From assembly GCF_028728065.1 (NCBI RefSeq), contig NZ_CP117812.1, forward strand, positions 1,736,001-1,800,000: 64,000 bases of DNA, written 5' to 3'. Within the stretch, counting starts at the first letter, position 1. Each line of letters opens with the position of its first letter. Both the position numbers and the translations under genes were made by a program. The stretch comes from Lentisphaera profundi. Lineage in GTDB: Bacteria; Verrucomicrobiota; Lentisphaeria; Lentisphaerales; Lentisphaeraceae. Below, in pieces: positions 1,085 through 43,103 of the stretch. A model generated the notes under the pieces. It had not been told where the DNA came from. It searched no databases and was given only the letters and a program-made list of their open reading frames with translations.

Positions 1085-1226
1085 AACTGTTTCTTTCATA
1101 TACCCTGAGATTTTTAAAATTGGACGTTATGGGAACTGTTTCTTTCATATACCCTGAGATTTTTAAAATTGGACGTTATGGGAACTGTTTCTTTCATATA
1201 CCCTGAGATTTTAAAATTGGACGTTA
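1085..1226. repeat. Three tandem copies of a 49-bp unit
   Basis: Copies begin at 1085, 1134 and 1183 (period 49). The first two are almost identical; the third has one T fewer in its T-run. Each unit holds one complete copy of the ATATAC...TGGACG promoter-like motif, so the array multiplies that motif upstream of the serine hydrolase gene. Confidence 0.95.
1098..1223 (-). promoter_or_regulatory. Class 1 two-block promoter motif, three copies
   Basis: On the gene strand each copy reads ACGTCCAA, then a spacer, then GTATATGAA. The plus-strand cores are 1098-1103/1121-1126, 1147-1152/1170-1175 and 1196-1201/1218-1223, giving gaps of 17, 17 and 16 bases. The same arrangement recurs in front of five other units in this window, always pointing at the gene. 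Distance from the nearest copy to the ATG at 991 is about 107 bases. Calling it a promoter is inference. Confidence 0.6.
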
Positions 1227-1606
1227 TTGTAGTGGTAACTTTGGTACATAGCTATTTGGATATTTTTGATAAGCGCCCAGACTTAGCTTGCTCCACTGTA
1301 TTGGCCCACCCATTTCTACATAAATATAATTGTTCCTATTTTGCTTTTTTCCCTATTAATCTGGCAAGGATATAGATTGAATAAATGATCTAAGTAAATG
1401 GTTTAATTGGATGGGTCCGATACGCATATTTTATGCCGGGCTAAAGTCCTAGAGGCAGGAAAAGGGGTCGAAATTGATCTAGGGCTCACTTGTGAGCCCG
1501 CTAGAATGTAGCGTGCTCCATCAGGGGCATGACTATGAGGAGATCATTCTTACTTTAAAGATTTTAGATCTTCGAACTTAAGGTGATTTTTATTAACAGG
1601 TGAGAG
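1227..1606. other. Gene-free stretch with one perfect hairpin at 1482-1499
   Basis: No credible reading frame was found. A perfect 8-bp stem, GGGCTCAC (1482-1489) and GTGAGCCC (1492-1499) with a 2-base gap, is bracketed by CTAG on both sides. It lies downstream of the minus-strand GH32 gene and could end or protect its transcript, but there is no T-run to make it a standard terminator. Confidence 0.4.
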
Positions 1607-5069: not shown

Positions 5070-5110
5070 TTGAGTTAACCTATTTAATTGATTTTGATTT
5101 CATTTACTCC

Positions 5111-5139
5111 ATATACAGCTAAAATCTGTGGTTTGGATG
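5111..5139 (-). promoter_or_regulatory. Class 1 two-block promoter motif
   Basis: Plus-strand cores ATATAC 5111-5116 and TGGATG 5134-5139 with 17 bases between; on the gene strand ACATCCAA then GTATATGGAG. The -10-like block lies 42 bases before the ATG of the GH32 gene at 5069. Confidence 0.65.
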
Positions 5140-8461: not shown

Positions 8462-8569
8462 GAAGTATTTACCTTATATACACATTAATTTTATTTTGTT
8501 TCTACACGCAGACCCTCAGACAAAACCTGCTGTGATAGCACTTAGCTTGCTAAGAAAATAACCGACTCC

Positions 8570-8598
8570 ATATACAAGTTTTTTTTTTGTATTGGATG
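8570..8598 (-). promoter_or_regulatory. Class 1 two-block promoter motif
   Basis: Plus-strand cores ATATAC 8570-8575 and TGGATG 8593-8598 with exactly 17 bases between, including a run of ten T. It faces the GH10 gene, 109 bases before its start codon. Confidence 0.65.
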
Positions 8599-8959: not shown

Positions 8960-8988
8960 CATCCAATTGCTGTTAAAACTGGGTATAT
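8960..8988 (+). promoter_or_regulatory. Class 1 two-block promoter motif
   Basis: CATCCA 8960-8965 and GTATAT 8983-8988, 17 bases between, read in the direction of the GH32 gene. The right block ends 28 bases before the ATG at 9017. This copy fixes the orientation of the motif, since its gene lies on the plus strand. Confidence 0.7.
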
Positions 8989-9016
8989 GATATGAAACAC
9001 ATACAGGAAATTATTA

Positions 9017-15239: not shown

Positions 15240-15377
15240 AAAATTTATAACCGTAAAAATCTATTATTAAACACTCTCTATAACACAGCTAGTTTTGTCG
15301 TTTGCCTTTTCTATGCGAGTTAAGTTCTAAGTCTTTCTATTATGAAATTGACTACTATATAAAAATGAGTTTATTCC

Positions 15378-15406
15378 ATATACCGGGATATACGTACTTT
15401 TGGATG
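15378..15406 (-). promoter_or_regulatory. Class 1 two-block promoter motif
   Basis: Plus-strand cores ATATAC 15378-15383 and TGGATG 15401-15406, 17 bases apart. It faces the zinc-ribbon cytochrome gene, 139 bases before its ATG. Confidence 0.65.
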
Positions 15407-20357: not shown

Positions 20358-21203
20358 TTATTTATTATGATCAAACCAGGTACCGCCTGCCCGTGAACCT
20401 GGAACTATTCTTTCCACCAAAGTCCTGCCATTCTTCACTTCCACGTGACCATCAGACATGGCCATATTGGCCTTTCCTCCTCCATGAGCATTAAAATATT
20501 CATAGTTCGAATATGAGTTTTTATAAGCATTATAATAATCATATCGAGCAGAATGATTGTGAAACAAACCGCCTAGTAGATTGCTGGCGGCCCCTTTATT
20601 ACCGGACTCATCATAATTCCACAATTCTGAAAAGAGTAGTGTTTGACTTGGCATTGTAACAGTGGAAAGCTGCACACCAACACCACCATTTTCAGGATAC
20701 ATCCCCCCAATAAGCCCGGGGTAAAATCCATTCCACAAACCCTCGTAATGCTCCGATGCTGCGTAGCTTTTCGGATACAAATCTGTCGTTATATCTGTTT
20801 CATCATAATTACTTTCAAACAAACCTAAAGAAGGGTCTGATGGACAATTGAATATCCTGGTGTGTGATTCAGAAGTATTACTCCTTAAGACATTGCCGTT
20901 CGGTCCAGTCCAATCAAGATTCAAATAGGTATAAATACTATCTTCCCATGAGATCTTGCCGAGATGATTCTGATTTTGAAAAAACCCATCATTGTCCAAG
21001 GTAAACATGGTATTGGCAAACAACAATTGCCTCTGATTGTTCGCACAGACTGCCATCTTGCTTGTTTTACGTGCTTTTGAGAGGCTTGGCAAAAGCAAGC
21101 TTGCCAGTATTGCGATAACACTGATTACGACAAGAAGTTCGATTAAAGTGAAGCGATGAATGCCCTCTTTAGACTCCTTAATTTTCATATTTCGCATAGT
21201 CAT
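20358..21203 (-). CDS. Prepilin-like protein with N-terminal methylation motif (Lentisphaera type)
   Basis: A 281-residue type II secretion pseudopilin-like protein. The leader (18 residues, basic) is followed by the methylation/cleavage motif [20 protein letters not shown] and a long hydrophobic helix. The C-terminus has [17 protein letters not shown], a variant of the H-X9-DG tail with ten instead of nine residues between H and DG. Such proteins are numerous in Lentisphaerae; most are thought to be surface or secreted proteins made through a pilin-like route, of unknown function. AGGAC precedes ATG 21203 by about 8 bases. A class 1 motif ends 42 bases before the start, and the gene is divergent from the first ECF sigma gene. 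Confidence 0.88.
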
Positions 21204-21245
21204 AATTTAAGTCCTGAATAAAGTTTTTAGTTGAGTTACATTTCC

Positions 21246-21273
21246 ATATACAGGCATTTTTTCATATTGGACG
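21246..21273 (-). promoter_or_regulatory. Class 1 two-block promoter motif next to the first ECF gene
   Basis: Plus-strand cores ATATAC 21246-21251 and TGGACG 21268-21273, here 16 bases apart as in one of the copies near 1200. It points at the prepilin gene and lies 80 bases before the ECF sigma gene on the other strand. Confidence 0.65.
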
Positions 21274-21353
21274 TCAATCATTATATTACATGACAATACC
21301 ATTTAATTTACCTTTAGTTTGTATTTAGTCTTTGATGGCCGTAACGTCATGAA

Positions 21354-21941
21354 ATGAAAAATAATTATCACACTAGACATACTCTACTACTCAGGGCCGC
21401 AGATCCAAATGATGAGCAGGCATGGGAAGATTTTGTGACGTATTACGATAGTTTTATTCAAATGGTTCTAAATCGTTTACTTTTTGATTTAAGAGAGAGT
21501 GATGATTTACGCCAAGATATCCTCATAAAGTTATGGAAAAACCTACAAACTTATGACCATAAAAAAGCCAAGTTTCGTACATGGTTGAGCACGGTTATTC
21601 GCAATACAGTTATTAATCACTCAGAAAAGAAAGGTCGAAAAAAGCTATTGCTAGCTCCCGAAGGCAGCCTGCTACTTGCGGCTGACTCACAGAACGAACT
21701 CGAATTACATATTCAAGCCGAGTGGGAAACTTATGCATCTTCTCTGGCATTGGAAAAAGTAAAACCATTATTTTCAGACAATGCATTTAAAGTTTTTAGT
21801 ATGAGTCTTGAGAATATGTCAGTTGATGTTATTTCTGAAAAATTGGAGATTAGTACTGATAGCGTCTACAAAATGAAAACTCGTTTCATAAAACGATTAC
21901 ATGAAGAAATAAACTTCATTCGAAATCAAACAGAGTTTTGA
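21354..21941 (+). CDS. ECF-type RNA polymerase sigma factor (first module)
   Basis: A 195-residue ECF sigma factor. Region 2 is clear (DLRQDILIKLWKNLQTYD, then FRTWLSTVIRNTVINH, roughly residues 50-92). Region 4 is the C-terminal helix-turn-helix (DVISEKLEISTDSVYKMKTRF, about 160-180), preceded by a long linker. The opening RAADPNDEQAWEDFVTYYDSF is shared with the second ECF protein of the window (QANNQDAWEDFCTYYQQY), so they are paralogues of the PVC-type ECF group that pairs with protein kinases. No anti-sigma gene is next to it; instead the kinase gene follows directly, so control by phosphorylation is likely. Candidate target: the class 1 motif found beside it. Confidence 0.9.
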   Translation: MKNNYHTRHTLLLRAADPNDEQAWEDFVTYYDSFIQMVLNRLLFDLRESDDLRQDILIKLWKNLQTYDHKKAKFRTWLSTVIRNTVINHSEKKGRKKLLLAPEGSLLLAADSQNELELHIQAEWETYASSLALEKVKPLFSDNAFKVFSMSLENMSVDVISEKLEISTDSVYKMKTRFIKRLHEEINFIRNQTEF

Positions 21942-21946
21942 TCACA

Positions 21947-24052
21947 ATGAGAAAGGGGCAAAAAGAAACACAAGATGCTGCTCAAAAAGCACTCATAAAT
22001 GCTGACCCTAGACTAAGAGTTTTTTTCAAAAAAGAAAATATCCCCGATACAGAATTAATATATGATGAGTTAGAGTGCTCCTCTAAATATAAAGATTTTA
22101 CTGAAATAGCTCGTGGTGGCATGAAAACCATTTACTCTGTTTACGATCAACATGCCGATCGCATCATTGCCATGGCAAAATTACACGATGTGACACCAGA
22201 AAAAATGTTTGAGCCCTTTTTAAGAGAAGCGAGATTAACAGCAAAATTAGATCACCCAAACATCATAAAAATCCATGAGATAGGCCTTAATGAATTTAGC
22301 AGGCCTTTCTTCACCATGGACTTAAAGAATGGTGAAAATCTTGGCTCTCAACTTAAAAAAAAGCAGTCTAGTTTAGCTGAATTATTAGTTATTTTCGTGA
22401 AGGTTTGTGATGCAATTTCCTATGCTCATTCAAGAGGTGTCATTCACCTAGATTTAAAGCCTGACAATATTCAAGTTGGTGAATTTGGTGAAGTCATAGT
22501 CTGCGACTGGGGGCTTGGTAAAATAATTGATGATCAAAGCTTCTCTAAGGATCCAATCAGTGATTCAGATATACTCAATAACATGACTCTGCATGGGAAG
22601 ATAAAGGGAACCCCAGGCTTTATGGCACCAGAACAGACTGGTCTCACCAATTTTGATAATGGTACCTGGACTGACATATACTCATTGGGCGTTAGCCTGT
22701 ATGTCATTCTTTGTGGTGATATACCTTTCCAAGGAGAAATTAAAACTCTTCTCAAAAACACTGCAAATGGGCAGTTTAAAAAACCATCAGCAATCACCCT
22801 TGTCCCACCAAGACTTGAAGCCATCTGTTTAAAAGCTATGAACAATGATCCCAAGAACCGCTACGCTAGTGTAGATGCCCTTAAAAATGACATAGAAGCT
22901 TATCAAGATGGTTACTTAACCAGTATCGAGGATGCCACTCTTTTAAAAGCCTTGACGCTACTCATCAAAAGAAATAAAAAAATAACTAGTATATTTTTAA
23001 GCGCTATATTTTTATTAATCTTATCAACTTCCATTTTTATTAAAAATATTAATATTGCTAAAAATAAGGCAGAACAAGCCACTATTGCCGCACGTGTATC
23101 AGAGCATAAAGCTCTTGATCTAGCAGACCGTTACCGTTCAGAAAAAATAAAAAGTCAGCGCAGGGGTAAAACTTCTGCACCTCAATTTATTTATAAAAGT
23201 GTTAAAGCGTGGAATCAATCTGAGATTGATTCAGCTGAGAGTAATATAAATATGGCCTTAATCCTAAATCCTAAAAATAATCAAGCGATCGAAATTAAAG
23301 CAGGACTTTTAGTCAGTCAATTTCAGTTTACTAATGCATTGAGCTTTTTACAGCAACAGGGTTTCAATGACAGTAGTTTAAAGGGTCATGGTATTATTGA
23401 AAAGTATTACAAAATAGCCCACACACACCTAAATCAGGAAGAATCACTCACTGATAATATTAAGTTGGAGATAATTCGCAATCTTTATACTGAGTACTAC
23501 TCAAATCATTCTATTATTCTGGATGGTTTTTCTTATTCTTTTTTCAAAAAAAATAGCCCACTTAAACTACGATTAAAATACACTCAAAAATTCCTCGAGA
23601 TATTTAACCCTAAATTGACTGCATTAAACTTTAACTATAATCCTGAGCAGACTTATCTTGATATCTCTAATAATAAGGAAATGGTCTGGGCCAAGTGCCT
23701 TAGAAACTTCCCCGCAACTCGAATCAATATATCCCATACCAAGCTATCTGATGTTTCTTCATTTACAGGCATGCCTCTGCTAGAGGTCGATGCCAGTCAT
23801 TCAGCCTTAACTGAAGTAGGCTTTGAATATCTATCAAAAATTCACACTCTTGATATATCAAACACAACAGTAAACCAGCTTACAAATATCCCTAGACGTT
23901 TAACTAAGTTAAACATTCGCCATACCTCAGTGCAATACTTAAGTCCATTGAATAAACTTAACTTATTAGAAGAACTAGTAATTCATAAAGGGCAATTCTC
24001 AAAAGAAGCTCTGGAAAGTGTACCCAAGAAAGTAAAAATTATTCAGAACTAA
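21947..24052 (+). CDS. Membrane Ser/Thr protein kinase with leucine-rich-like tail (first module)
   Basis: A Hanks-type kinase of about 700 residues. Numbered from TTG 21938, the ATP loop is IARGGMKTIYSVYD (57-70), the lysine is K81, the catalytic loop HLDLKPDN (170-177) and the metal loop DWG (190-192), followed by GTPGFMAPEQ. HLD and DWG replace the usual HRD and DFG, and the glycine loop is shortened. A membrane helix lies at about 351-370, so the C-terminal part should be outside the cytoplasm. That part has helical repeats and then LRR-like lines (LTKLNIRHTSVQYLSPL, LHTLDISNT-like). ATG 21947 lies 5 bases after the sigma stop; TTG 21938 is an overlapping alternative. Probably senses something outside and acts on the ECF factor. 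Confidence 0.88.
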   Translation: MRKGQKETQDAAQKALINADPRLRVFFKKENIPDTELIYDELECSSKYKDFTEIARGGMKTIYSVYDQHADRIIAMAKLHDVTPEKMFEPFLREARLTAKLDHPNIIKIHEIGLNEFSRPFFTMDLKNGENLGSQLKKKQSSLAELLVIFVKVCDAISYAHSRGVIHLDLKPDNIQVGEFGEVIVCDWGLGKIIDDQSFSKDPISDSDILNNMTLHGKIKGTPGFMAPEQTGLTNFDNGTWTDIYSLGVSLYVILCGDIPFQGEIKTLLKNTANGQFKKPSAITLVPPRLEAICLKAMNNDPKNRYASVDALKNDIEAYQDGYLTSIEDATLLKALTLLIKRNKKITSIFLSAIFLLILSTSIFIKNINIAKNKAEQATIAARVSEHKALDLADRYRSEKIKSQRRGKTSAPQFIYKSVKAWNQSEIDSAESNINMALILNPKNNQAIEIKAGLLVSQFQFTNALSFLQQQGFNDSSLKGHGIIEKYYKIAHTHLNQEESLTDNIKLEIIRNLYTEYYSNHSIILDGFSYSFFKKNSPLKLRLKYTQKFLEIFNPKLTALNFNYNPEQTYLDISNNKEMVWAKCLRNFPATRINISHTKLSDVSSFTGMPLLEVDASHSALTEVGFEYLSKIHTLDISNTTVNQLTNIPRRLTKLNIRHTSVQYLSPLNKLNLLEELVIHKGQFSKEALESVPKKVKIIQN

Positions 24053-24419
24053 TTTTCACTATAGATTACAAAACGGGCGTTGAGTATTAGTGGGATGGTC
24101 CCCGCTGGCCATTTGAAACAGCGCAAACACTCACGGCTTTGGCTAATACACTCAACAACTATGATCAGAGATCTTCTCCAAAGAAGATTATATCATGTCA
24201 AGTCCTGATAGCACCAAAAAGTCTTTGAAGATACACCTGGAACTATTTCCGTATAGACATCCTCCCTATCTCCTTTCAGTAAGCTGAAAAACAGTCCATG
24301 ATTTATACTTTTCAGAAAGGGGAACTTCACCCGCCGTTTTAGCCTCCACCATTATTTTAGCTACGTCAGAAGGTACGTGTACATGTTCGAACTTGTGCAT
24401 ACATGTAGAAACTTAGACT
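24053..24419. other. Intergenic stretch with an imperfect inverted repeat and possible coding debris
   Basis: GTTGAGTATTAG (24079-24090) and CTAATACACTCAAC (24143-24156) are near-complementary and could fold after the kinase gene. The 15-mer GCTAATACACTCAAC at 24142-24156 recurs exactly at 43115-43129, also just after a plus-strand gene. On the complement, 24200-24390 reads as broken protein-like pieces (HVPSDVAKIMVEAKTAGEV, then DREDVYTEIVPGVSSKTFW), perhaps an old gene fragment of unknown family. Confidence 0.35.
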
Positions 24420-24641
24420 GATTGAGGACAAAAAAAAGCCAAGCTGGTGCTTGGCGATCCCAGGGGAATTTTGAATGATTGAGGAGAATAGATAAGGCCG
24501 AGCTGGTGCTTGGCGATCCCAGGGGAATTTTGAATGATTGAGGAGAGTAGATAAGGCCAAGCTGGTGCTTGGCGATCCCAGGGGGAGTTTGAATGATTGA
24601 GGAGTGGTGATAAGGCCAAGCTGGTGCTTGGCGATCCCAGG
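24420..24641. repeat. Four tandem 57-59 bp repeats, each with a hairpin
   Basis: Units begin at 24420, 24477, 24536 and 24595. Each carries GCCAAGC-TGGT-GCTTGGC, a perfect 7-bp stem with a 4-base loop, then gatcccagg. In the second unit the stem base A is G, which still pairs as G-U in RNA. The array lies between convergent genes, so it may stop transcription from both sides or be a dispersed repeat family. Long frames across it on the complement strand are only repeat translation. Confidence 0.9.
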
Positions 24642-24696
24642 ATTGAGTGACAAGTGATTTGCTTCTTGATGAGAGGATATCCTAAGTCTGTGAGTA

Positions 24697-25389
24697 CTAT
24701 ACCGACCAATACCAACTCGTTATGTTATAGCGATAGATTTCGGTGTTCTTAGGGTTCATTTTCTCCACCCAGTGCTCAGAGCCTTTTGAGGAAGGATCAA
24801 ATAAAACACAGCGATTAAATAAAGGTGCAATACGAACTGGCGCATCATCTTCACCGATAAAGACCAACTCACCTCCATCTGCTTCAGCCCAATCTTTATT
24901 TAAGTACAATAACATGCAAACTTCCCTTCCCGGTGAGTCATCGGCGTGTTGCTCCACAAAATCCCTAGCACCTAAACGAAAGTAATTGGTATTTATAGCT
25001 GGATCTTCCACAGTAATGTCGGTTAATTGGACATTAAAGATACAGGATAAAACTGACATAAATTCATCCCCTCGCAAAAATGACAAAAAGTCCTGAGCAT
25101 TATTGCCACTAAGCTCATCGCATTGCCAAATACCTCGCTGAACAAAGCGCTCATCTTTACTGGCTTGCTGCCATTGATTATCATCTACATATAAAGCCGA
25201 GTAAGTGTGCTTTTGTGTCTGCCAATAATCCTCTTGCTGTAAAATATTCACTACTTCATTCAGCTTGTCTTCATCAAATAAGCCATCAATCACGATATGA
25301 TTGGGACAAGAATTTGATAAAGACTCTCGATACCTAGATAGAGCAGGAACGTTGACGCTCTCATCATTCAAGTACATAGAAACTACCAT
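24697..25389 (-). CDS. 2-oxoglutarate/Fe(II)-dependent oxygenase (prolyl-4-hydroxylase-like)
   Basis: A 230-residue cytoplasmic protein with the iron site of this superfamily: H148 and D150 in EQHADDSPGRE, H206 in SEHWVEKM, and R220 in IYRYN as the probable 2-oxoglutarate anchor. CMLLYLNKDW and GGELVF between them are typical of the P4Hc group, which hydroxylates proline or other residues, or small molecules. No signal peptide is seen. The start is uncertain: neither ATG 25389 nor ATG 25377 has a clear ribosome site. It is close upstream of the hairpin repeat array and stands alone, with unrelated neighbours. Substrate unknown. Confidence 0.8.
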   Translation of the reverse strand: MVVSMYLNDESVNVPALSRYRESLSNSCPNHIVIDGLFDEDKLNEVVNILQQEDYWQTQKHTYSALYVDDNQWQQASKDERFVQRGIWQCDELSGNNAQDFLSFLRGDEFMSVLSCIFNVQLTDITVEDPAINTNYFRLGARDFVEQHADDSPGREVCMLLYLNKDWAEADGGELVFIGEDDAPVRIAPLFNRCVLFDPSSKGSEHWVEKMNPKNTEIYRYNITSWYWSV

Positions 25390-25433
25390 TTATATTTTTA
25401 GATAATCCCAAAGCAAGGAGGTAACTGAATACC

Positions 25434-26195
25434 CTATTGTAATTGAGCCGTAATTGATGCTACAACTTTTTGAGCCAGGAATGCGGAACCCGCAGTGTTG
25501 AAGTGAACATTTTTAGGCTTTTGTAAATCGCTTAATTTTGTATTTACGGCGCTATACAAATCATTTACTGTAATATCATTTTTCTGCATGATTGCGATTG
25601 CCACAGTATTATATTTACCGGCATCAATGGGGTCACGATAGGGTTTTACTCCCGCAGGAAAAGGTGTAGTTGTCGCGAAAATAAGCTTTGCATTTGTCGC
25701 TTTTAATTTTGAAACTAATAAAGTTAAGTTTTTTGTATATTGTGCTAAGTCAGCTTGTTGAGGGTCATTGGCCTCATTTGAGTTTTCACTCGTCCCCGCC
25801 ACTTTAACTCGCTTTAAATCATGAAGTCCCCAATTAAAGTGAATGACATCCCATTGCGTATCTCCTATCCAAGAATCAAGTTTTTCGACACCTAGAGTTG
25901 TGCCCTGAGCATTTCCTGGATTATGGCTAATATTTGCTTTACCCTTTAATTTTTTACGAACAGTATTGGTATAGCCAATAGAAATGGAGTCACCAATAAT
26001 TAACACCATCGGCAGACTGGGATCAACTTTGGATTTTTTCGATTTTCTCTTTTTTTTATTTTCCGCAGAACCTTCTTCGGGAACATAAGCCTTATCACTT
26101 GCCGCTTTAGGATTTGGCTTAGTCGCTGGTGCTGCAAATAGATTGAGGGCATTCAAACAAATAAAAATGGCAATATATAAACGATATAAACTCAT
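25434..26195 (-). CDS. SGNH/GDSL hydrolase, exported
   Basis: A 253-residue exported hydrolase. A signal peptide (1-21, ending LFAA) is followed by a Lys-rich linker (about 25-58), then the SGNH fold. Block I is IIGDSISIGY with Ser70, block II the NAQGT segment, block III HFNWGLHDLK with the Asn, and block V VHFN with the His near residue 233. Such enzymes remove acetyl or acyl groups from glycans or lipids. It ends 45 bases before the oxygenase gene on the same strand. Whether it belongs with the glycan genes cannot be told from sequence; the linker suggests it sits at a distance from the membrane or wall. Confidence 0.85.
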   Translation of the reverse strand: MSLYRLYIAIFICLNALNLFAAPATKPNPKAASDKAYVPEEGSAENKKKRKSKKSKVDPSLPMVLIIGDSISIGYTNTVRKKLKGKANISHNPGNAQGTTLGVEKLDSWIGDTQWDVIHFNWGLHDLKRVKVAGTSENSNEANDPQQADLAQYTKNLTLLVSKLKATNAKLIFATTTPFPAGVKPYRDPIDAGKYNTVAIAIMQKNDITVNDLYSAVNTKLSDLQKPKNVHFNTAGSAFLAQKVVASITAQLQ

Positions 26196-26399
26196 GGAAA
26201 TCCCTTGTGATTTTAATTATATTTTGAAATGGCTGCAATGTATTTTAATTATACTGATCTCTATTCAATAATCTTACAATATACAACACTCATCATTAAT
26301 AAATCTAAGCATAGTTTATACATGCTGAATTACTTAGATTAACATATAATGCTTTACGGATGAATTCTTATCCAACAAGAATTCACCCATGGATAAAAA

Positions 26400-29006
26400 T
26401 TACTTAAAACTCTTCACCAAATTTTTATCTTCTTTGAGTTCTTCACTCTCTTTATGTGTAAAGGGATAAGATTTTATGATCTCCAAAAGCATTGGCTGGG
26501 GTTTCATATCATTTTCTAAAAGAGTTTCAGTCAATTTCATGATGACTGGCTCATCAAAATACTGAAGTTGACGACCCAAGGCAAAGCTGAGCATGCGCTC
26601 ACTAAAAGTTCTTGCAAAAGATGCTTTGCGTTTCACTAAAATCTTGCGTAATTCATGAGGATTTGAAAAAGCCTCTCCACTGGGGAGTACTCCATTGGAA
26701 TCAATAGTATTCTTACCGTTCTTTTTACGATAGTTGCCAATAGGATCAAAGTTCTCGAGTCCAAAACCAATAGGGTCAATTTTATCGTGACAGGAGCGAC
26801 AGTTTGGATCATCTCTATGCTTCTCTAATTCTTGACGTAAAGTCAACTTAGCTTTGCCTACTCCTGCACCTTCTGGCAAGGGAGGTATATTGGCTGGTGG
26901 TTCAGGAAGATGTTTACCTAAAAGACGCTCTAAGACCCATAAGCCACGATCTACAGGAGAAGTCCGAAGTGGTTGTGAAGTCGCTGTTAAAACGGCCGCC
27001 ATACCCAATACACCACCACGGTTTTTATCTTTTATTTGAACCCGACGAAATTCATCTCCTACTACACCTTTGACTTTATAAAACTTTGCCAAATCTTCGT
27101 TCATATAGGTGTAATCAGAGTCAAGGATATCGAGAATTGATTTATTTTCAATAAGTATTGCCGAGATGAAATTTTCTGTCTCCGCCACCATATCATCCAT
27201 CAGTTCGGGTGTGAACTGTTTATATTTTTTTGCATCAGGAGTTCGACTACGCCCCAAAGAAGTAAGCGTCAGCCACTGACTCGAAAAAAGCGAGGTGAAT
27301 CTTTTAGCTTTCGGATCTTGTAGCATTCTCTTAAGTTGTGACTCCATAACTTGAGGATCACTTAATTTTCCTTTTGAGGCAAGGTTCATAAGCTCATCAT
27401 CGGGTAGTGACATCCATAGGAAGTACGATAAACGAGAGGCTAATTTATAGTCACCCATTTTTTGGAGTCCTTCACGTGAAGATTCGATGCGATAAAGAAA
27501 CTGAGGTGAGACTAAGACCGCAATAAAAGCACCTTTTAGCCCCTCTATATAACTTTTACGAAGCTTGTATTCAGAATCATAAATCTGCAATAATTTGCTC
27601 AATTCAAGATCTTTTACTGGACGACGATAAGCACGGCTGGCCAAGTTTTTGACGATAATCTCCGCAGCTTGCCGAGGAGATACATTAGTACTGGGTTTGG
27701 CAATATTAAGCTTCGCATAATCGGGCTTGTCTGGGAGCTTCAAATATTGTGCACGATGAATCCACTCGACTCCACCAGGGCCTTTCTTGGGATTTAATAC
27801 TGGAGCAGCACTGCCTGAGGTGTCTGTTGCAGCGACCACTGCGACATCTGAAATATTCTTGTCTTTGACCGATTTTTCCTTTGCTGCTTTCTTGGTTTTA
27901 CTTTTATCGACTTTAGGACTTTTTCCTCTTCCACGAGTGGGCATCGTACTCGCCAATAAACTACCTTCAGGATATTTATATAAAGGTCCCTCGATTTTTA
28001 GTTCAGAAATTCGCATCGCCACACTGCCTAGTGTTGGCTTTGGATACATTTGTTTCGGTTGGTAAATATCTCCTGTAGGTGATGCCTTCGCCAGTTCTTG
28101 CGGAACTTTAGAAGGGATCGCATTAAAACTGATCTGACGATTGCCTTCTTCCAAATAGAGTAAAATTTTGTAGTCACCAGAGAATTCATTTCGTGATTTT
28201 AACCATGTTGAACCTATTAGCTGATTATCGACTAAAACTTTTATGGCAACCATTGTCGTATTATTTGGTCGATAACCATGGGCGTCTATTGAGAGTTCAT
28301 AAACTCCAGAAGTTTCAATCGTTTGATAGTAATATAATGTATCTTGATCACGATAGATAAAATAACCTAGATCATCGGACTTGGTACTTTCATCTGTATT
28401 AAAAAGCGTATTCGCTTTCTTACTCATGCTCAAAGGTTTTACTTTTTTTGAGGGAAAATACTTATTCACTAAATCTTCCGCAGCAACAAAATATTTATCC
28501 ATTTGAGTAGCGGATAAAAACAGCCCATCGCGGTCATTATTAAATCCGCTTTCGCCGATTGCATCTTCATTGAATTTTTTTGAAGCATCATAATCCCACG
28601 CAAAGAGGTCTTGAATTGTGTAACGATACTCTTCTTTGGTCAGTCGTGGGATATTTACGTTGCCTGCATTTTTATACTTATTCCAATCAATATTCTTTAG
28701 TTGATAATCAAGCCAGTCAACTAATATCTGACGTTCTGCCTCGGTAGGAAAAGGTTTTTTTGTCGGCATTTCACCGGTGTGAACCTGTTCAATGGCTTTC
28801 TTCCAAATTTCAATATTCTGGGCAATTTGTGGATCATCTTCAAAGAGTTCGAAATCAATCCCACCTTTCTCATCCAAACTATCATGACATTTATAACAGT
28901 AATTATCTAATATAGGGACGATATCTTTTTGGTAAGTTAGATGACTCATATCCTTCGCTTGAAGCATAGAAGTGAGTCCGAACGTTAATAAAATATATTT
29001 ATTCAT
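26400..29006 (-). CDS. DUF1587/1592/1588-type cytochrome protein
   Basis: An 868-residue exported protein of the planctomycete cytochrome group. A signal peptide (to about residue 17) is followed by a cytochrome motif CYKCH (37-41). The DUF1587 part starts at PRLTKEEYRYTIQDLF, and a carbohydrate-binding-like beta region lies near 215-345. A Lys-rich low-complexity linker (about 360-410) comes next, then DUF1595, DUF1592 (LASRLSYFLWMSLPDDEL), DUF1588 (SPVDRGLWVLERLLG and CRSCHDKIDPIGFGLENFDPIG) and DUF1585. It lies 11 bases after the DUF1552 gene, so the two are co-transcribed, in the opposite order from the pair at 11031-15239. Presumed periplasmic electron-transfer enzyme of unknown substrate. 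Confidence 0.9.
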   Translation of the reverse strand: MNKYILLTFGLTSMLQAKDMSHLTYQKDIVPILDNYCYKCHDSLDEKGGIDFELFEDDPQIAQNIEIWKKAIEQVHTGEMPTKKPFPTEAERQILVDWLDYQLKNIDWNKYKNAGNVNIPRLTKEEYRYTIQDLFAWDYDASKKFNEDAIGESGFNNDRDGLFLSATQMDKYFVAAEDLVNKYFPSKKVKPLSMSKKANTLFNTDESTKSDDLGYFIYRDQDTLYYYQTIETSGVYELSIDAHGYRPNNTTMVAIKVLVDNQLIGSTWLKSRNEFSGDYKILLYLEEGNRQISFNAIPSKVPQELAKASPTGDIYQPKQMYPKPTLGSVAMRISELKIEGPLYKYPEGSLLASTMPTRGRGKSPKVDKSKTKKAAKEKSVKDKNISDVAVVAATDTSGSAAPVLNPKKGPGGVEWIHRAQYLKLPDKPDYAKLNIAKPSTNVSPRQAAEIIVKNLASRAYRRPVKDLELSKLLQIYDSEYKLRKSYIEGLKGAFIAVLVSPQFLYRIESSREGLQKMGDYKLASRLSYFLWMSLPDDELMNLASKGKLSDPQVMESQLKRMLQDPKAKRFTSLFSSQWLTLTSLGRSRTPDAKKYKQFTPELMDDMVAETENFISAILIENKSILDILDSDYTYMNEDLAKFYKVKGVVGDEFRRVQIKDKNRGGVLGMAAVLTATSQPLRTSPVDRGLWVLERLLGKHLPEPPANIPPLPEGAGVGKAKLTLRQELEKHRDDPNCRSCHDKIDPIGFGLENFDPIGNYRKKNGKNTIDSNGVLPSGEAFSNPHELRKILVKRKASFARTFSERMLSFALGRQLQYFDEPVIMKLTETLLENDMKPQPMLLEIIKSYPFTHKESEELKEDKNLVKSFK

Positions 29007-29017
29007 ACTTAAACTCC

Positions 29018-30280
29018 TTAGGCTAAAATATCGACTTTGCCAGTGCTATCGGCAAAACCTTTATTTTTAATTCCGTAGGCCTCAAGAACTGAACTCAATA
29101 GATTCGCATAAGGGGTTTTTGCTTTATCGGCTATACGCCCCTGAGTTTTCACTGCACCACCAGCACGACCTGCTAAAATGAGGGGCAAATCAGTTTTAAT
29201 ATGGCCATTGCCATCTTTCATACCCGCGCCAAAAAGAACTAAGGAATTATCTAAAAGGGTTTTATCTCCTTCTTTTACATTTTTCATTTTCGCTAGAACA
29301 CGAGCTACTTTCTCAGCATGCCATTGCGATACTCGGGTATATTGATCGTAATTGCTCTCTTTATTTTTGTGATGGCTCATAGTATGATGATCAAGTGAAA
29401 CACCATCTAGAAAAGTAAAGGATTTGCGACTAAAACCATGCCCCATCATAATGGTTCCAACATGGGTAGTTTCAGTCATAAAACCCAATACCATCAAGTC
29501 ACAAAGTAAATCCATGTGCTCGTTACGATCACGTGGAATATCACTTCCCGGTCTTAGCATCGTCGTTTTACTTGATTTATTAGCTGGATTCATAAGGTTT
29601 TCAATTCGACGTTCAACTTCGCGAACTCCGCTAATGTATTCATCAAACTTCACACGATCCGCAGAACTAATGTTTTTACGTAAATCCTTCGCTTGCCCAA
29701 ATACCGCATCAATAATACTCTTACGACGATTCATCAAATGACGCATTTCTGGCGTATCATAGGACTTGAACATGGAATCAAAAATGTTTTGCGGGTTGAG
29801 TTCAGGTGTAATCATTGTACTTACAGAACTCCACGAAACTGTACTGGCCATCACCTTACCACCGCGGGGCGGCTCCGTGCCGACCACCAAAGAAGGTAAG
29901 CGTGTATCTTGACCAATTTTTTGAGCGATCATTTGGTCAATCGAAGGCGTCTTTGCTTTATCTCTTGATACACCTGAAAGAAAGGAGTTGGTCATTTCGA
30001 CATGGCCTTTACCACTTGAATCGAGACCAGAGATAATATTTATATCATCATCAAATGATTCGAAAGGTTTTAAAATAGGCGAATAAGCTAAGCCTTTACC
30101 AAGACCTGTCATATCCCAGTTGGGGGGATAAACGCCATTGGGCATAAACATGGAAAGAAAACGTTTGGGAGATTCTGAACTCACGGCTTCATCACCCATA
30201 ACTTCTAAAGCGGGCAATGCCATACAGGCACCTAAACCTTTTAAAAATGTTCTACGGGGTATTTTCCAGTTCTTGCTCAT
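29018..30280 (-). CDS. DUF1552 protein, Tat-exported
   Basis: A 420-residue DUF1552 protein. The leader has twin arginines (KIPRRTFLKGLGACMALPALE, residues 6-26). Family blocks are [66 protein letters not shown] and LPLILAGRAGG. It is the first gene of an operon with the cytochrome protein. A class 2 promoter motif lies 34-66 bases before its start codon, and the second ECF sigma gene is divergent beyond that. Confidence 0.9.
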   Translation of the reverse strand: MSKNWKIPRRTFLKGLGACMALPALEVMGDEAVSSESPKRFLSMFMPNGVYPPNWDMTGLGKGLAYSPILKPFESFDDDINIISGLDSSGKGHVEMTNSFLSGVSRDKAKTPSIDQMIAQKIGQDTRLPSLVVGTEPPRGGKVMASTVSWSSVSTMITPELNPQNIFDSMFKSYDTPEMRHLMNRRKSIIDAVFGQAKDLRKNISSADRVKFDEYISGVREVERRIENLMNPANKSSKTTMLRPGSDIPRDRNEHMDLLCDLMVLGFMTETTHVGTIMMGHGFSRKSFTFLDGVSLDHHTMSHHKNKESNYDQYTRVSQWHAEKVARVLAKMKNVKEGDKTLLDNSLVLFGAGMKDGNGHIKTDLPLILAGRAGGAVKTQGRIADKAKTPYANLLSSVLEAYGIKNKGFADSTGKVDILA

Positions 30281-30313
30281 ATTTAGGCCTCTTGATTTTT
30301 AAATTCTTTATTA

Positions 30314-30346
30314 GTGGTACCGTACAAATAAATGAATCTTGAAGCT
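30314..30346 (-). promoter_or_regulatory. Class 2 two-block promoter motif next to the second ECF gene
   Basis: Plus strand: GTGGTAC (30314-30320), 14 bases, AATCTTGAAGCT (30335-30346), then CT and a T-tract. On the gene strand this is AGCTTCAAGATT-N14-GTACCAC with an A-tract upstream, 34 bases before the DUF1552 ATG. The same 19 fixed bases at the same spacing occur at 40891-40923 before the PQQ-propeller gene. Confidence 0.6.
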
Positions 30347-30477
30347 GCTTAATATTTTTTTGTATATTTTAATTTTTATACAGTTCTGTTTAATGTGTTT
30401 GATTTCTATATGCCTTGACTATAATAGAATATCTTTTAGTGTTATGAACTGACACTCTATATCAAAGGCTTAATAAC

Positions 30478-31077
30478 ATGTCTACGTCAAACGATCCATG
30501 GAAAACTCGCATCACCTTGCTTGAACGGATTAAACAAGCCAACAACCAAGACGCTTGGGAAGACTTTTGCACCTATTACCAGCAATATCTTTACAATATC
30601 TTACGACGAATGAATATGGACACCAGTGAAGCTGAAGATATTTCACAACTCGTACTGCTCAAAATGTGGAACAAACTGCCTTCCTTTGAGCTAGATAAAG
30701 ATCGTGGTAAATTCAGATCTTGGCTCGCAACTGTTGTGAGGAATCAGGCTGCTGATTACATCAAAAAAAAGCACCGTGAAATCCCCCGCTTACAAAGTCC
30801 TTCTGAAGATGCTGCAGGGCTTTCCTTAAATTCTGATTTATCGCAAATCATTACCGAAGAATGGGAAAGTTACTTACTCAAAAAAGCATGGAATAACATC
30901 ACTAATGAATTTGATCAAGTGACGCTGAAAGGTTTTGAAATGCTTTCTAAAGGTATGAATGTCGAGCTCATTGCTGAAGAACTTAAGGTTAAAACTTCAA
31001 CTGTCTATGCTCATAAAAAACGAGTTAAAGATAGATTAAAAGTCGAAATACGGCGTTTGAAAAATGAACTCCTCTAA
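30478..31077 (+). CDS. ECF-type RNA polymerase sigma factor (second module)
   Basis: A 199-residue ECF sigma factor, paralogue of the one at 21354. Region 2 runs through AEDISQLVLLKMWNKLPSFE and FRSWLATVVRNQAADYIKKKHRE (about 55-102); region 4 is VELIAEELKVKTSTVYAHKKRVKDRLK (about 161-187). As in the first module there is no anti-sigma gene; the kinase gene overlaps the 3' end by 14 bases. The gene is divergent from the DUF1552/cytochrome operon, whose class 2 motif is the closest candidate target. Confidence 0.92.
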   Translation: MSTSNDPWKTRITLLERIKQANNQDAWEDFCTYYQQYLYNILRRMNMDTSEAEDISQLVLLKMWNKLPSFELDKDRGKFRSWLATVVRNQAADYIKKKHREIPRLQSPSEDAAGLSLNSDLSQIITEEWESYLLKKAWNNITNEFDQVTLKGFEMLSKGMNVELIAEELKVKTSTVYAHKKRVKDRLKVEIRRLKNELL

Positions 31078-33169
31078 AGAACCTTCTCTCGAAGACAACT
31101 TTACCCAAAGCATTGATTTCCTAAAAGAATCATTGATGGAAGTTCATGAAGAAGAATCTCAGGAGGGTAAAACCTATACAAATATACTGACTCTTCTTCC
31201 ACAATCTTTCAAAAACTACCGCGACATCAATCTTTTTGATGAGGGAGGAATGAAAGTCATTGAGAAAGCTTGGGATCCTTCGGGGAATCGCGAAGTAGCT
31301 ATTGCTTCTATGAAAACTGATAGTGAGGACCTGAAACAAAAAATACTATTTATCAACGAAGCTTGGACGACGGGACGCATGGAGCACCCCAATATTGTCC
31401 CAGTCTATGAAGTCGCTATTAATGATCAACAAGCCCCCTACTTCTCGATGAAGATGCTTCGTGGTATGAACCTGCAAGATTGGTTAAAAAAACAATCTGA
31501 AAGTGCTCAAAAACAATCTATCCCATCCCTACTTGAAATCTTTAAAAAAATTATCGATGCAGTCGCCTATGCTCACTCCAAAGGAGTCGTTCATTTAGAC
31601 TTGAAGCCCGCCAACATTCACGTTGGTGAGTTCGGGGAAATTTTGCTTATTGACTGGGGTTTAGCGCGTGTTTTCAACGCCAGCTTACTCAGCGAACAAC
31701 AACTTAAGCTCCACGAGGCCATTGAACCCTATCTCCAAAGTCATTCCCGTGGTACACCCGACTATATGGCCCCTGAAAGTAGAGATGGAACATCGCCATC
31801 ACCTCAAGCCGATATTTATTCACTTGGTATAATTTTGCGTTGCTTACTGACAAGCGCAATGCCACAAAGTGAAGCCTTTGACAACCTTAAAAAAGTACCC
31901 AAATCGATTCAATCAATTATCGGAAAAAGTAGTGCTACAAATCTTGAAGTTCGTTATAAGACCGTGGAAAGTTTAAATAACGATATCAACTCTTATTTGG
32001 ATGGCTTTGCCAACTCTGCAGAAAGCCCTAGTACCATAACACACCTGCAGTTCTTTATTAAACGTCATAAACAGCTATGTCTTTTTGGCTTAATAGCCTC
32101 TTTCATAATACTCACACTCACACTCTATTCCTTTAGTGAAATCAAAGGAAGTGAAGCTATTGCCCTTGAAGAAACTGAGCGAACTAAACAAGCACTCGCA
32201 GATTTACAGCTAGAAACCTTAGAAAAAGATAAGCTCATTAAAAAGCTCGAGCCAGGAATTCTGATTGAGCAAAGGCGCTATGTCAACGATTTAGACTTCT
32301 CGGAAGCTCTACGCAGTATGGAATTCCTCATGAGAATGGATTCAAAGGACCCGGAAATCCTCTTTCGTTACGCACGCTTAAAATTTGCTACGCTTGAATT
32401 TGAAAAAGCTCAAGAGGTTTTCATTGAAGTTCAAAAACAAGACCCTAACTATCCGGATATAGCTCATTTTTTAGAAGCTAGCGATCATTTTTTAAAGCTG
32501 AGTCAACAAAGAGAATTAAATGATGATGATTACTTAAATCTCGCTTCCAATGTCAAACAAGGTACCGTCGCGCTTGCTCTTTTTGAAAAAGTTTATTCCA
32601 CAAAAAATATTCATGAGCAAATTGAATTTTTTAAAAAGTTTATGGCCTCAAAATTTTCAAAGCAAGTTTATAGCATTCAAATTTTAGATAATCAAAATCT
32701 CGAAATTAAATTAAAAACTGCCAGTAAGTCCCTGAATATCCTCTGTGGCTTACCAGTAGAAAATTTGTATTTAGGACCTAATTCACAAGTCCAGAGTTCT
32801 CTTAATCATTTGACTAAACTTAAAAAATTAAGTATTTACAATGGGAAAGTGAATACTTTAAAAACTACTAGAAACTTGATTGAATTAATTATTGAACAAT
32901 CAGAAACTTCCCCCAGTTTGTCTATTTCCCCACAAGATCATCCCCTTCTGAAAACCTTTAGTTTACGTGGGAGCAACTTAAATAAATGGCCTATTTTTCA
33001 AAATTTCCCTCACTTGGAAAGCCTTGATTTGAGAGAGACGAATTTCGAAAAATTTTCTTCCCTCTTGCATTCCAATAGTCTTAAAACAATCTATCTAACG
33101 GGCCCTATTCCCGAAGATCATTTAAAGCGACTCAACAAAAGAAAAGATATCGAAATCATTATTGAGTAA
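31064..33169 (+). CDS. Membrane Ser/Thr protein kinase with helical-repeat and LRR-like tail (second module)
   Basis: A 701-residue Hanks-type kinase overlapping the sigma gene by 14 bases, which implies coupled translation. ATP loop FDEGGMKVIEKAW (58-70), Lys84, catalytic loop HLDLKPAN (177-184, Asp179), DWG (197-199) and YMAPES. HLD and DWG, and the GGMK loop, are the same departures from HRD, DFG and GxGxxG seen in the first-module kinase. A membrane helix lies at about 340-359, followed by a coiled stretch, TPR-like helices (FEKAQEVFIEVQKQDPNYP) and LRR-like segments (LKTFSLRGSNLNKW, LESLDLRETNFEKF). Likely senses a signal outside the membrane and regulates the adjacent ECF factor. Confidence 0.9.
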   Translation: MNSSKEPSLEDNFTQSIDFLKESLMEVHEEESQEGKTYTNILTLLPQSFKNYRDINLFDEGGMKVIEKAWDPSGNREVAIASMKTDSEDLKQKILFINEAWTTGRMEHPNIVPVYEVAINDQQAPYFSMKMLRGMNLQDWLKKQSESAQKQSIPSLLEIFKKIIDAVAYAHSKGVVHLDLKPANIHVGEFGEILLIDWGLARVFNASLLSEQQLKLHEAIEPYLQSHSRGTPDYMAPESRDGTSPSPQADIYSLGIILRCLLTSAMPQSEAFDNLKKVPKSIQSIIGKSSATNLEVRYKTVESLNNDINSYLDGFANSAESPSTITHLQFFIKRHKQLCLFGLIASFIILTLTLYSFSEIKGSEAIALEETERTKQALADLQLETLEKDKLIKKLEPGILIEQRRYVNDLDFSEALRSMEFLMRMDSKDPEILFRYARLKFATLEFEKAQEVFIEVQKQDPNYPDIAHFLEASDHFLKLSQQRELNDDDYLNLASNVKQGTVALALFEKVYSTKNIHEQIEFFKKFMASKFSKQVYSIQILDNQNLEIKLKTASKSLNILCGLPVENLYLGPNSQVQSSLNHLTKLKKLSIYNGKVNTLKTTRNLIELIIEQSETSPSLSISPQDHPLLKTFSLRGSNLNKWPIFQNFPHLESLDLRETNFEKFSSLLHSNSLKTIYLTGPIPEDHLKRLNKRKDIEIIIE

Positions 33170-42020: not shown

Positions 42021-42467
42021 ATAACAAAATTTTACCATGAGTCTAAAATAAGGAATTCGACGCTACCTTCGTAGGGTTTCTTTATATAATTCATACAGAC
42101 ACGAAAATACCGTGCTCTGTACAAACAGATGCTATCGCTCTAACACTGCACCATAATTGTCCGTTTAAAAAACGTGATTAGAGCTTTTTTTATTGTGGGC
42201 AAACATCTATTTACTCAATTCCAAGTTTTGTATCAATATTTATTACACACTGTCGATTCTTATAGTCATGTCATTTCAAATGACTCTAAGCTTTCTATTA
42301 ATTGGGCACAAATAGTGAATAAATCGTGTGGTTATATACACATATACTCAATATTAAATGAAATAATAAAAACATAAACCATTGAAAACAATATATATAT
42401 ATACAAAACAATGACTTAGGATCACATTCTTCTTTACTTCTCCTTAATATAAAATAAGGAGTTTAAA
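42021..42467. other. Gene-free AT-rich stretch
   Basis: No supported gene. A 67-codon frame at 42174-42377 starts with GTG and lacks a ribosome site. A run of alternating TA lies near 42392-42402. The ribosome site AAGGAG for the prepilin gene is at 42457-42462. Confidence 0.5.
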
Positions 42468-43103
42468 ATGAAAGCAAAATTCACACTGATCGAGTTGATC
42501 GTCGTTGTTGCGATTATAGGCATAGTAGCCAGTTTAATATTACCTACACTAGGCAAAGCTAGGAACAAAGCTCACCAAGCCAATTGTAAGAGTAAACTAA
42601 AGCAAGCCACTATGGCCAATTTCATGTATGCAGATGATAATAATTCCAGGATTTTTGAAAGCACAAATGGCCAAACAAAGTGGAATAAAAGTTTGTTTGA
42701 ATCTGCTTATTTAAGTGGAGCCAATAAAAGTGATAAGCATCCATTTCACTGCCCTAAAGGCGTTGCTTTCAATTGGAACTATGAAACTAATTATGCGATG
42801 AACTACAAACTAAGCTTTAAAAGTTCCACATATTCACCCATACCTCTTGAAAGTACAAATGGATCTTCCACTCTTATGCTCATTGATGCTTACAATAAAT
42901 CAAATATTCTATGGCGAAATCATATCAAAGGTTCTACAGGTATAAACAAAGTCATCAATGCCAGTTCTGAGATGAAAATGGCGAGGCATGACAATAAGTT
43001 GAACCTCACATATCTCGATGGTCATCTGGAATCTATTTCTGATACCGGAATTCTACTGATTGGTAACACACTAAAAACCACTGATGAATTTTGGACTCCC
43101 TAA
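42468..43103 (+). CDS. Prepilin-like protein with H-X9-DG tail (Lentisphaera type)
   Basis: A 211-residue pseudopilin-like protein. Leader of only four residues (MKAK), then FTLIELIVVVAIIGIVASLI, the methylation motif and hydrophobic helix. The rest is rich in Asn, Ser and Lys, and the C-terminus has HDNKLNLTYLDGHLE, the exact H-X9-DG spacing. AAGGAG precedes the ATG at good spacing. It is not next to other secretion genes. By analogy with the many copies in Lentisphaerae genomes it is probably a surface or secreted protein; function unknown. It differs from the one at 20358 in leader length and in the tail spacing. Confidence 0.88.
   Translation: MKAKFTLIELIVVVAIIGIVASLILPTLGKARNKAHQANCKSKLKQATMANFMYADDNNSRIFESTNGQTKWNKSLFESAYLSGANKSDKHPFHCPKGVAFNWNYETNYAMNYKLSFKSSTYSPIPLESTNGSSTLMLIDAYNKSNILWRNHIKGSTGINKVINASSEMKMARHDNKLNLTYLDGHLESISDTGILLIGNTLKTTDEFWTP

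Follow-up and report, generated by a model that had tools for sequence, protein, structure and literature searches.

In the polysaccharide loci of Bacteroidetes, cluster-specific ECF sigma factors are held under anti-sigma factors. Activation of ECF43 sigma factors by phosphorylation has been demonstrated in Vibrio and Xanthomonas, with the pairs EcfP/PknT and EcfK/PknS (PMC8999054, PMC13147305). For ECF59, ECF61, ECF62, and ECF217, mostly with planctomycetal examples, kinase regulation has been predicted from gene neighbourhood, and kinase-linked groups besides ECF43 retain a DAED-like motif (PMC8999054). Among kinases, the WNK family lacks the beta3 lysine; its catalytic lysine sits instead where the glycine loop would have its third glycine. 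The family retains the alphaC Glu, HRD Asp, and DFG Asp, and in WNK1 the HRD Arg contacts the alphaC Glu; a 2007 survey considered WNK the only functional eukaryotic-type kinase family without the beta3 lysine (PMC1821047). The parts consulted of a review of bacterial pseudokinases do not describe a WNK-type family (PMC12599244).

The window analysed here is the whole stretch of 64,000 nucleotides at C2:1736001-1800000 of a two-contig, 5.46 Mb genome (G000). The initial annotation described two modules in it, each with an ECF gene tightly linked to a membrane kinase gene, and this arrangement is borne out (Table 1): ECF1 overlaps its kinase gene by 4 bases, the TTG start of kinase 1 overlapping the ECF1 stop, and ECF2 overlaps its kinase gene by 14 bases. 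Both kinases consist of a Pkinase domain, a single predicted membrane helix, and a C-terminal part with repeats. Of the LRR-like and repeat domains proposed to lie past the helix, the repeats stand in kinase 2, where a TPR match (PF14559) in the C-terminal part is over cut-off, but the LRR matches in the kinase C-terminal parts are weak and below cut-off. A low-confidence structure model of the kinase (pLDDT 43) has a helical and then strand-rich C-terminal part with moderate support at most. The modules had also been said to have no anti-sigma gene; consistent with this, the domain scan found no anti-sigma domain among the neighbouring proteins scanned around the window's two modules, which include oxygenase, GDSL lipase, sulfatase, alpha/beta hydrolase, DUF1552/DUF1592 cytochrome, GH32, and GH10 proteins. 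A search for related loci returned distant Bacteroidota matches only. Two features were overlooked by the initial annotation: the modules are two of about 58, and the active site of the kinases is of WNK type.

Table 1. Features of the two modules, their dyads, and the kinase active-site codons (positions counted from the first letter of the window)
Feature	Position	Strand	Basis
ECF sigma factor, module 1 (ECF1)	21354..21941	+	Sigma70_r2 1e-14; TIGR02937 over cut-off; N-terminal TRxTLL signature
Transmembrane Hanks-type kinase, module 1	21938..24052	+	Pkinase 2.5e-33; one TM, residues 349-367
Codon of glycine-loop Lys63 of kinase 1 (GGMK, third glycine of GxGxxG)	22124..22126	+	alignment to PknA
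Codon of Ala80 of kinase 1 at the beta3-lysine position	22175..22177	+	44/45 Ala, no Lys
ECF sigma factor, module 2 (ECF2)	30478..31077	+	Sigma70_r2 3.2e-15
Transmembrane Hanks-type kinase, module 2	31064..33169	+	Pkinase 9.2e-34; TPR_19 7.4e-7; TM residues 338-356; LRR-like C-terminal part
Codon of glycine-loop Lys64 of kinase 2	31253..31255	+	kinase alignment
Codon of Ala81 of kinase 2 at the beta3-lysine position	31304..31306	+	kinase alignment
Three class 1 dyads, 49-bp tandem repeat, upstream of a 400-aa gene starting in the window	1097..1221	-	pattern and PWM
Class 1 dyad upstream of GH32 gene	5110..5137	-	pattern; annotation
Class 1 dyad upstream of GH10 gene	8569..8596	-	pattern; annotation
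Class 1 dyad upstream of GH32 gene	8962..8989	+	pattern; annotation
Class 1 dyad upstream of cytochrome/DUF1592-DUF1552 operon	15377..15404	-	pattern; annotation
Class 1 dyad divergent from ECF1, upstream of pseudopilin-like gene 20358-21203	21245..21271	-	pattern and PWM; kept in G002, G005
Candidate class 2 dyad in front of ECF2 (weak)	30381..30411	+	
Candidate class 2 dyad divergent from ECF2 (weak)	30422..30451	-	
Candidate class 2 dyad upstream of ORF 42468-43103 (weak)	42272..42300	+	

The genome has 105 Pkinase matches and 87 sigma70-ECF matches, and 58 of its ECFs form one family by tree, with the N-terminal TRxTLL signature in common. As in ECF43, the ECF gene typically lies beside that of a transmembrane Hanks-type kinase: 45 of the 58 have a kinase within 400 bp, on the same strand in 30 cases. 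The present system differs from ECF43 in having dozens of paralogues, private promoters, and kinases without the beta3 lysine. It differs also in sigma2.2, where ECF43 has its acids replaced and a conserved Thr, while the 58-member family of this genome keeps the acids (100%, 74%, and 71% D/E in the acidic columns of the 58 paralogues, with Asp in 58/58 at one position); the acid-loss switch of ECF43 is thus inapplicable. Two N-terminal TRxTLL threonines are invariant in the 58 paralogues, but similar Thr positions occur in ECF relatives adjoining canonical kinases, so these threonines are candidate phosphosites only. Kinase linkage and the lack of an anti-sigma gene (the latter checked around the window's modules) are shared with ECF59, ECF61, ECF62, and ECF217; WNK-type kinases and private dyads, however, are not described for those groups in the cited literature, the comparison being one by description. 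The likeness to the polysaccharide ECFs of Bacteroidetes is that of one sigma factor per polysaccharide gene cluster, with a Ser/Thr kinase here in place of the anti-sigma and receptor pair.

Relatives from the host's own family have 53-80 matches to ECF1 per genome, with one exception that has 8, and other genomes of the host's class have 0-16. Distances among the ECFs correlate with those among the kinases (r=0.706; highest value among permutations 0.263), although block duplication accounts for part of this correlation. Pseudopilin-like genes are found within 3 kb of 22/58 ECFs compared with approximately 20% of random genes from the regions analysed, a modest enrichment. A divergent target gene at every module was considered and rejected, since for about half of the ECFs the gene upstream is on the same strand.

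The class 1 motif, TCCAA-N15/17-GTATATG, had been placed divergent from the first module, and a site is indeed present there. The pattern has 13 matches in 5.46 Mb, 11 of them inside the 74 kb of C2:1683762-1757271, which end at module 1, while its backward control has one match genome-wide. The binomial probability of this clustering is 2e-19 for a pattern chosen after sight of the sequence; all dyads were picked in this way, and the independent tests are the other genomes. In C2:1683-1757 kb a PWM gives 12 sites between genes that score 22 bits or more, all upstream of a same-strand gene; its top score in 1.49 Mb of background is 17.6. Annotation of the genes behind the sites (GH32, GH10, and the DUF1592/DUF1552 cytochrome) bears out the polysaccharide and cytochrome targets that had been proposed. 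In G002, where the ECF1 orthologue is 95% identical, 7/9 class 1 matches (one intragenic) lie around the orthologue on contig C1. The site divergent from this orthologue is kept although the gene it faces differs, and retains 18/20 box bases compared with 59% for the upstream region. In G005 ECF1 is 62% identical, GACGTCCAA-N-GGTARGTG occupies the divergent position with a drifted -10 box, and a second copy of GACGTCCAA...GGTARGTG lies upstream of a sulfatase gene. G001 has neither an ECF1 orthologue nor a class 1 cluster, with one match versus two control matches. Because of the co-localisation in G000 and G002, the conserved site in G005, and the joint absence of cluster and orthologue from G001, a reading of class 1 by ECF1 appears well supported.

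This falls short of proof because a second module, that of ECF C2:1691421, is located in the same territory in both G000 and G002. Its position only 8 kb from the leftmost class 1 site pair, and that of its 88% identical orthologue in G002, are what would be expected if the dyad were read by ECF C2:1691421, or by both sigma factors, rather than by ECF1. We regard this as improbable, since the site divergent from ECF1 is conserved in G000, G002, and G005, and G005 has an ECF1 orthologue while its best match to ECF C2:1691421 is 44% identical; the 40 kb examined of the contig carrying ECF1 in G005 contain no orthologue of ECF C2:1691421.

The kinases next to family ECFs are distinct from the remaining kinases of the genome. 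Among 104 aligned kinases, 58 have a WNK-type layout, 45 of which abut a family ECF, and most of the other 13 lie 2-14 kb from one; canonical kinases, with the beta3 lysine present, never abut a family ECF (0/37; Fisher 1e-15). In the alignment, every one of the 45 abutting kinases has Lys in place of the third glycine of the glycine loop and lacks the beta3 lysine, which is replaced by Ala (VAxA) in 44 and Val in one. The signature is also found in ECF-adjacent kinases of G001, G002, G004, G005, and G008, while elsewhere in the class the kinases adjoining related ECFs are mostly canonical. The missing beta3 lysine and the Lys at the third glycine are shared with WNK kinases; the present kinases differ in being bacterial, membrane-spanning, and ECF-linked, with PknA and PknB as their best PDB relatives and no WNK among the 60 matches listed. 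Nor is the HRD Arg kept (Leu in 53/58 WNK-type kinases), and DWG replaces DFG in 58/58. The layout looks like convergence, an independent invention.

Loss of the beta3 lysine is one pseudokinase criterion in use, as given in the review (PMC12599244), and together with the failure to find a separate anti-sigma gene around the window's modules it would suit linked kinases that are inactive, each an anti-sigma-like scaffold that holds its ECF and releases it upon signal. This is doubtful, because the invariant third-glycine Lys (45/45) is at the location of the catalytic lysine in WNK kinases (PMC1821047) and the abutting kinases retain the alphaC Glu (45/45), the HRD Asp/Lys/Asn (45/45), and the DFG Asp (44/45). 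With HRD Asp and DFG Asp present, the beta3 lysine is the sole loss, which sets these proteins apart from bacterial pseudokinases that have lost HRD or DFG catalytic residues. Retention of the alphaC Glu, HRD Asp, and DFG Asp leads us to expect activity, and the WNK-type kinases are likely, although unproved, to be active enzymes.

Private dyads are not limited to module 1. An unseeded dyad scan of 1092 upstream regions, selected near ECF and kinase genes within 39% of the genome, found local dyad clusters backed by 5-166 words, compared with at most 2 in three shuffles; for motifs M3, M4, and M5, locality was judged within that scanned 39%. The best-replicated private motif is TGTTAAG-N17-CTTCTAT, which adjoins ECF C1:700560 and has 7/7 of its G000 matches within the 36 kb of C1:668-705 kb. 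It tracks the ECF orthologue across four genomes: matches are 8/8 on C8 in G004, 3/4 on C30 in G002, and 3/7 on C257 (with 3 on C7) in G005, and contigs C8, C30, and C257 carry orthologues of ECF C1:700560 that are 71%, 83%, and 70% identical. Where no close orthologue is present, matches number one (G001) and zero (G008). The genes of this putative regulon include fucosidases (Alpha_L_fucos, GH95), GH97, sulfatases, esterases, cytochromes, and pseudopilin-like proteins. Further examples from the unseeded scan are TGTCACA-N15-CTGTAT near ECF C1:1431044, with 5/6 whole-genome matches within 7 kb; a CTGTCC-N17-ACGAA cluster near ECF C1:435649; a GTWACA-type...GGGTTTA dyad near ECFs C2:500579, C2:523094, and C2:532153; and the weaker ATCAAAA...CGGTTT near ECF C1:272110, with one word and one site elsewhere. 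Private motifs were thus found for about six motif groups (8-9 ECFs) out of 58, that of module 2 not being secure. A test seeded with divergent promoters gave strong local enrichment for ECF C2:532153 and ECF1 only, with three moderate cases; it was discarded as a motif finder, having missed motifs evident in the unseeded scan.

The pairing of ECF and kinase genes, the private motifs, and the tracking of a motif with its ECF orthologue (module 1 and ECF C1:700560) are direct observations. Least probable of the alternatives is that local transcription factors use the dyads as operators, with the ECF and kinase genes as mere neighbours: locality is equally expected of local regulators and the ECF-DNA link is here drawn from sequence, but the two boxes at near-constant 13-18 bp spacing, nearly all upstream on the gene strand and 2-205 bp from starts, argue against operators, as do motif presence that follows the ECF orthologue in two cases and the similar dyad common to the close ECF paralogues 500579, 523094, and 532153.

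Module 2 is the weak half of the finding. The class 2 motif described at this module is unconfirmed, and the best dyad found here, CAKTTC-N15/17-TTCTATWW, is possibly not the same motif. It has three sites nearby and one elsewhere, compared with five backward-control matches genome-wide, and a seeded locality test was not above nulls. Two of the candidate sites lie on opposite strands of the intergenic region ahead of ECF2, while the ORF behind the third is pseudopilin-like by eye and has no Pfam match. The dyad was defined from those same sites and is for this reason a lead rather than a confirmation; the closest ECF2 orthologue in the compared genomes, 43% identical, is too distant for footprinting. 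A first seeded motif discovery was rejected as overfitted, every module 2 candidate having zero background by construction. The proposal that each ECF reads its adjacent motif is well supported for ECF1, while for ECF2 and class 2 it is only suggestive.

Each module may be a membrane-to-promoter signalling pair. The single-pass kinase, with a TPR/LRR-type part predicted to lie outside, would sense a signal, probably a polysaccharide or a breakdown product, and would phosphorylate its partner ECF, which would then guide RNA polymerase to a two-box promoter near-exclusive to the gene cluster around the module. Reading of the motif by the sigma factor, phosphorylation as the gate, and the phosphosite are parts of this scheme that we infer; kinase gating is plausible in view of the synteny and co-evolution of the two partners and of what is known for EcfP/PknT and EcfK/PknS. 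We judge it probable that kinase-sigma pairs drive cluster-private two-box promoters in this way, from signal through phosphorylation to ECF. With less assurance, we lean slightly toward a wider reading in which each genome of the host's family has about 58 active, independently evolved WNK-type kinases, each with one ECF and a private promoter for one polysaccharide cluster, as parallel insulated channels.

What appears to be new is the pairing of putative WNK-type kinases with ECFs. If the scheme is true, dozens of natural sigma-promoter pairs would operate within one cell, the regulons of polysaccharide clusters would be predictable directly from sequence, and active protein kinases without the beta3 lysine would have a second evolutionary origin. 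The switching of kinase-linked ECFs that retain the sigma2.2 acids, which is open according to the review (PMC8999054), would become testable.

Pseudopilin-like genes are present in several private regulons, in which a gene cluster shares a dyad found almost only around one ECF/kinase module (loci L045, L028, L024, L205, and L207), and their products have FTLIELLVV at the start and a VDGHV-type sequence at the end; overall enrichment of such genes near ECFs is modest. In the TGTTAAG regulon, a DUF1592-type cytochrome protein has an N-terminal FHA domain, a phosphothreonine-binding fold. The TGTCACA dyad also occurs outside its main cluster, upstream of sodium/solute symporter-like genes. Two tandem arrays lie in the window: every copy of the first carries the putative class 1 promoter dyad, with a single 400-aa gene downstream, and the second lies between an oxygenase gene and kinase 1.

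Coordinates of the features described
Feature	Position
49-bp unit, 3 tandem copies	window 1085-1227
59-bp unit, 3.8 copies	window 24419-24641
FHA-cytochrome gene	L233:8860-11802
TGTCACA dyad, source genome (L245)	G000 C1:1363756
TGTCACA dyad, same-family relative (L244)	G005:C247:6444-6544

Related ECFs with the MAYTTKKSLL start, from other class members (L136-L151), are often near kinases that keep the ordinary beta3 lysine, which suggests that ECF-kinase pairing predates the shift of this lysine to the third glycine of the glycine loop.
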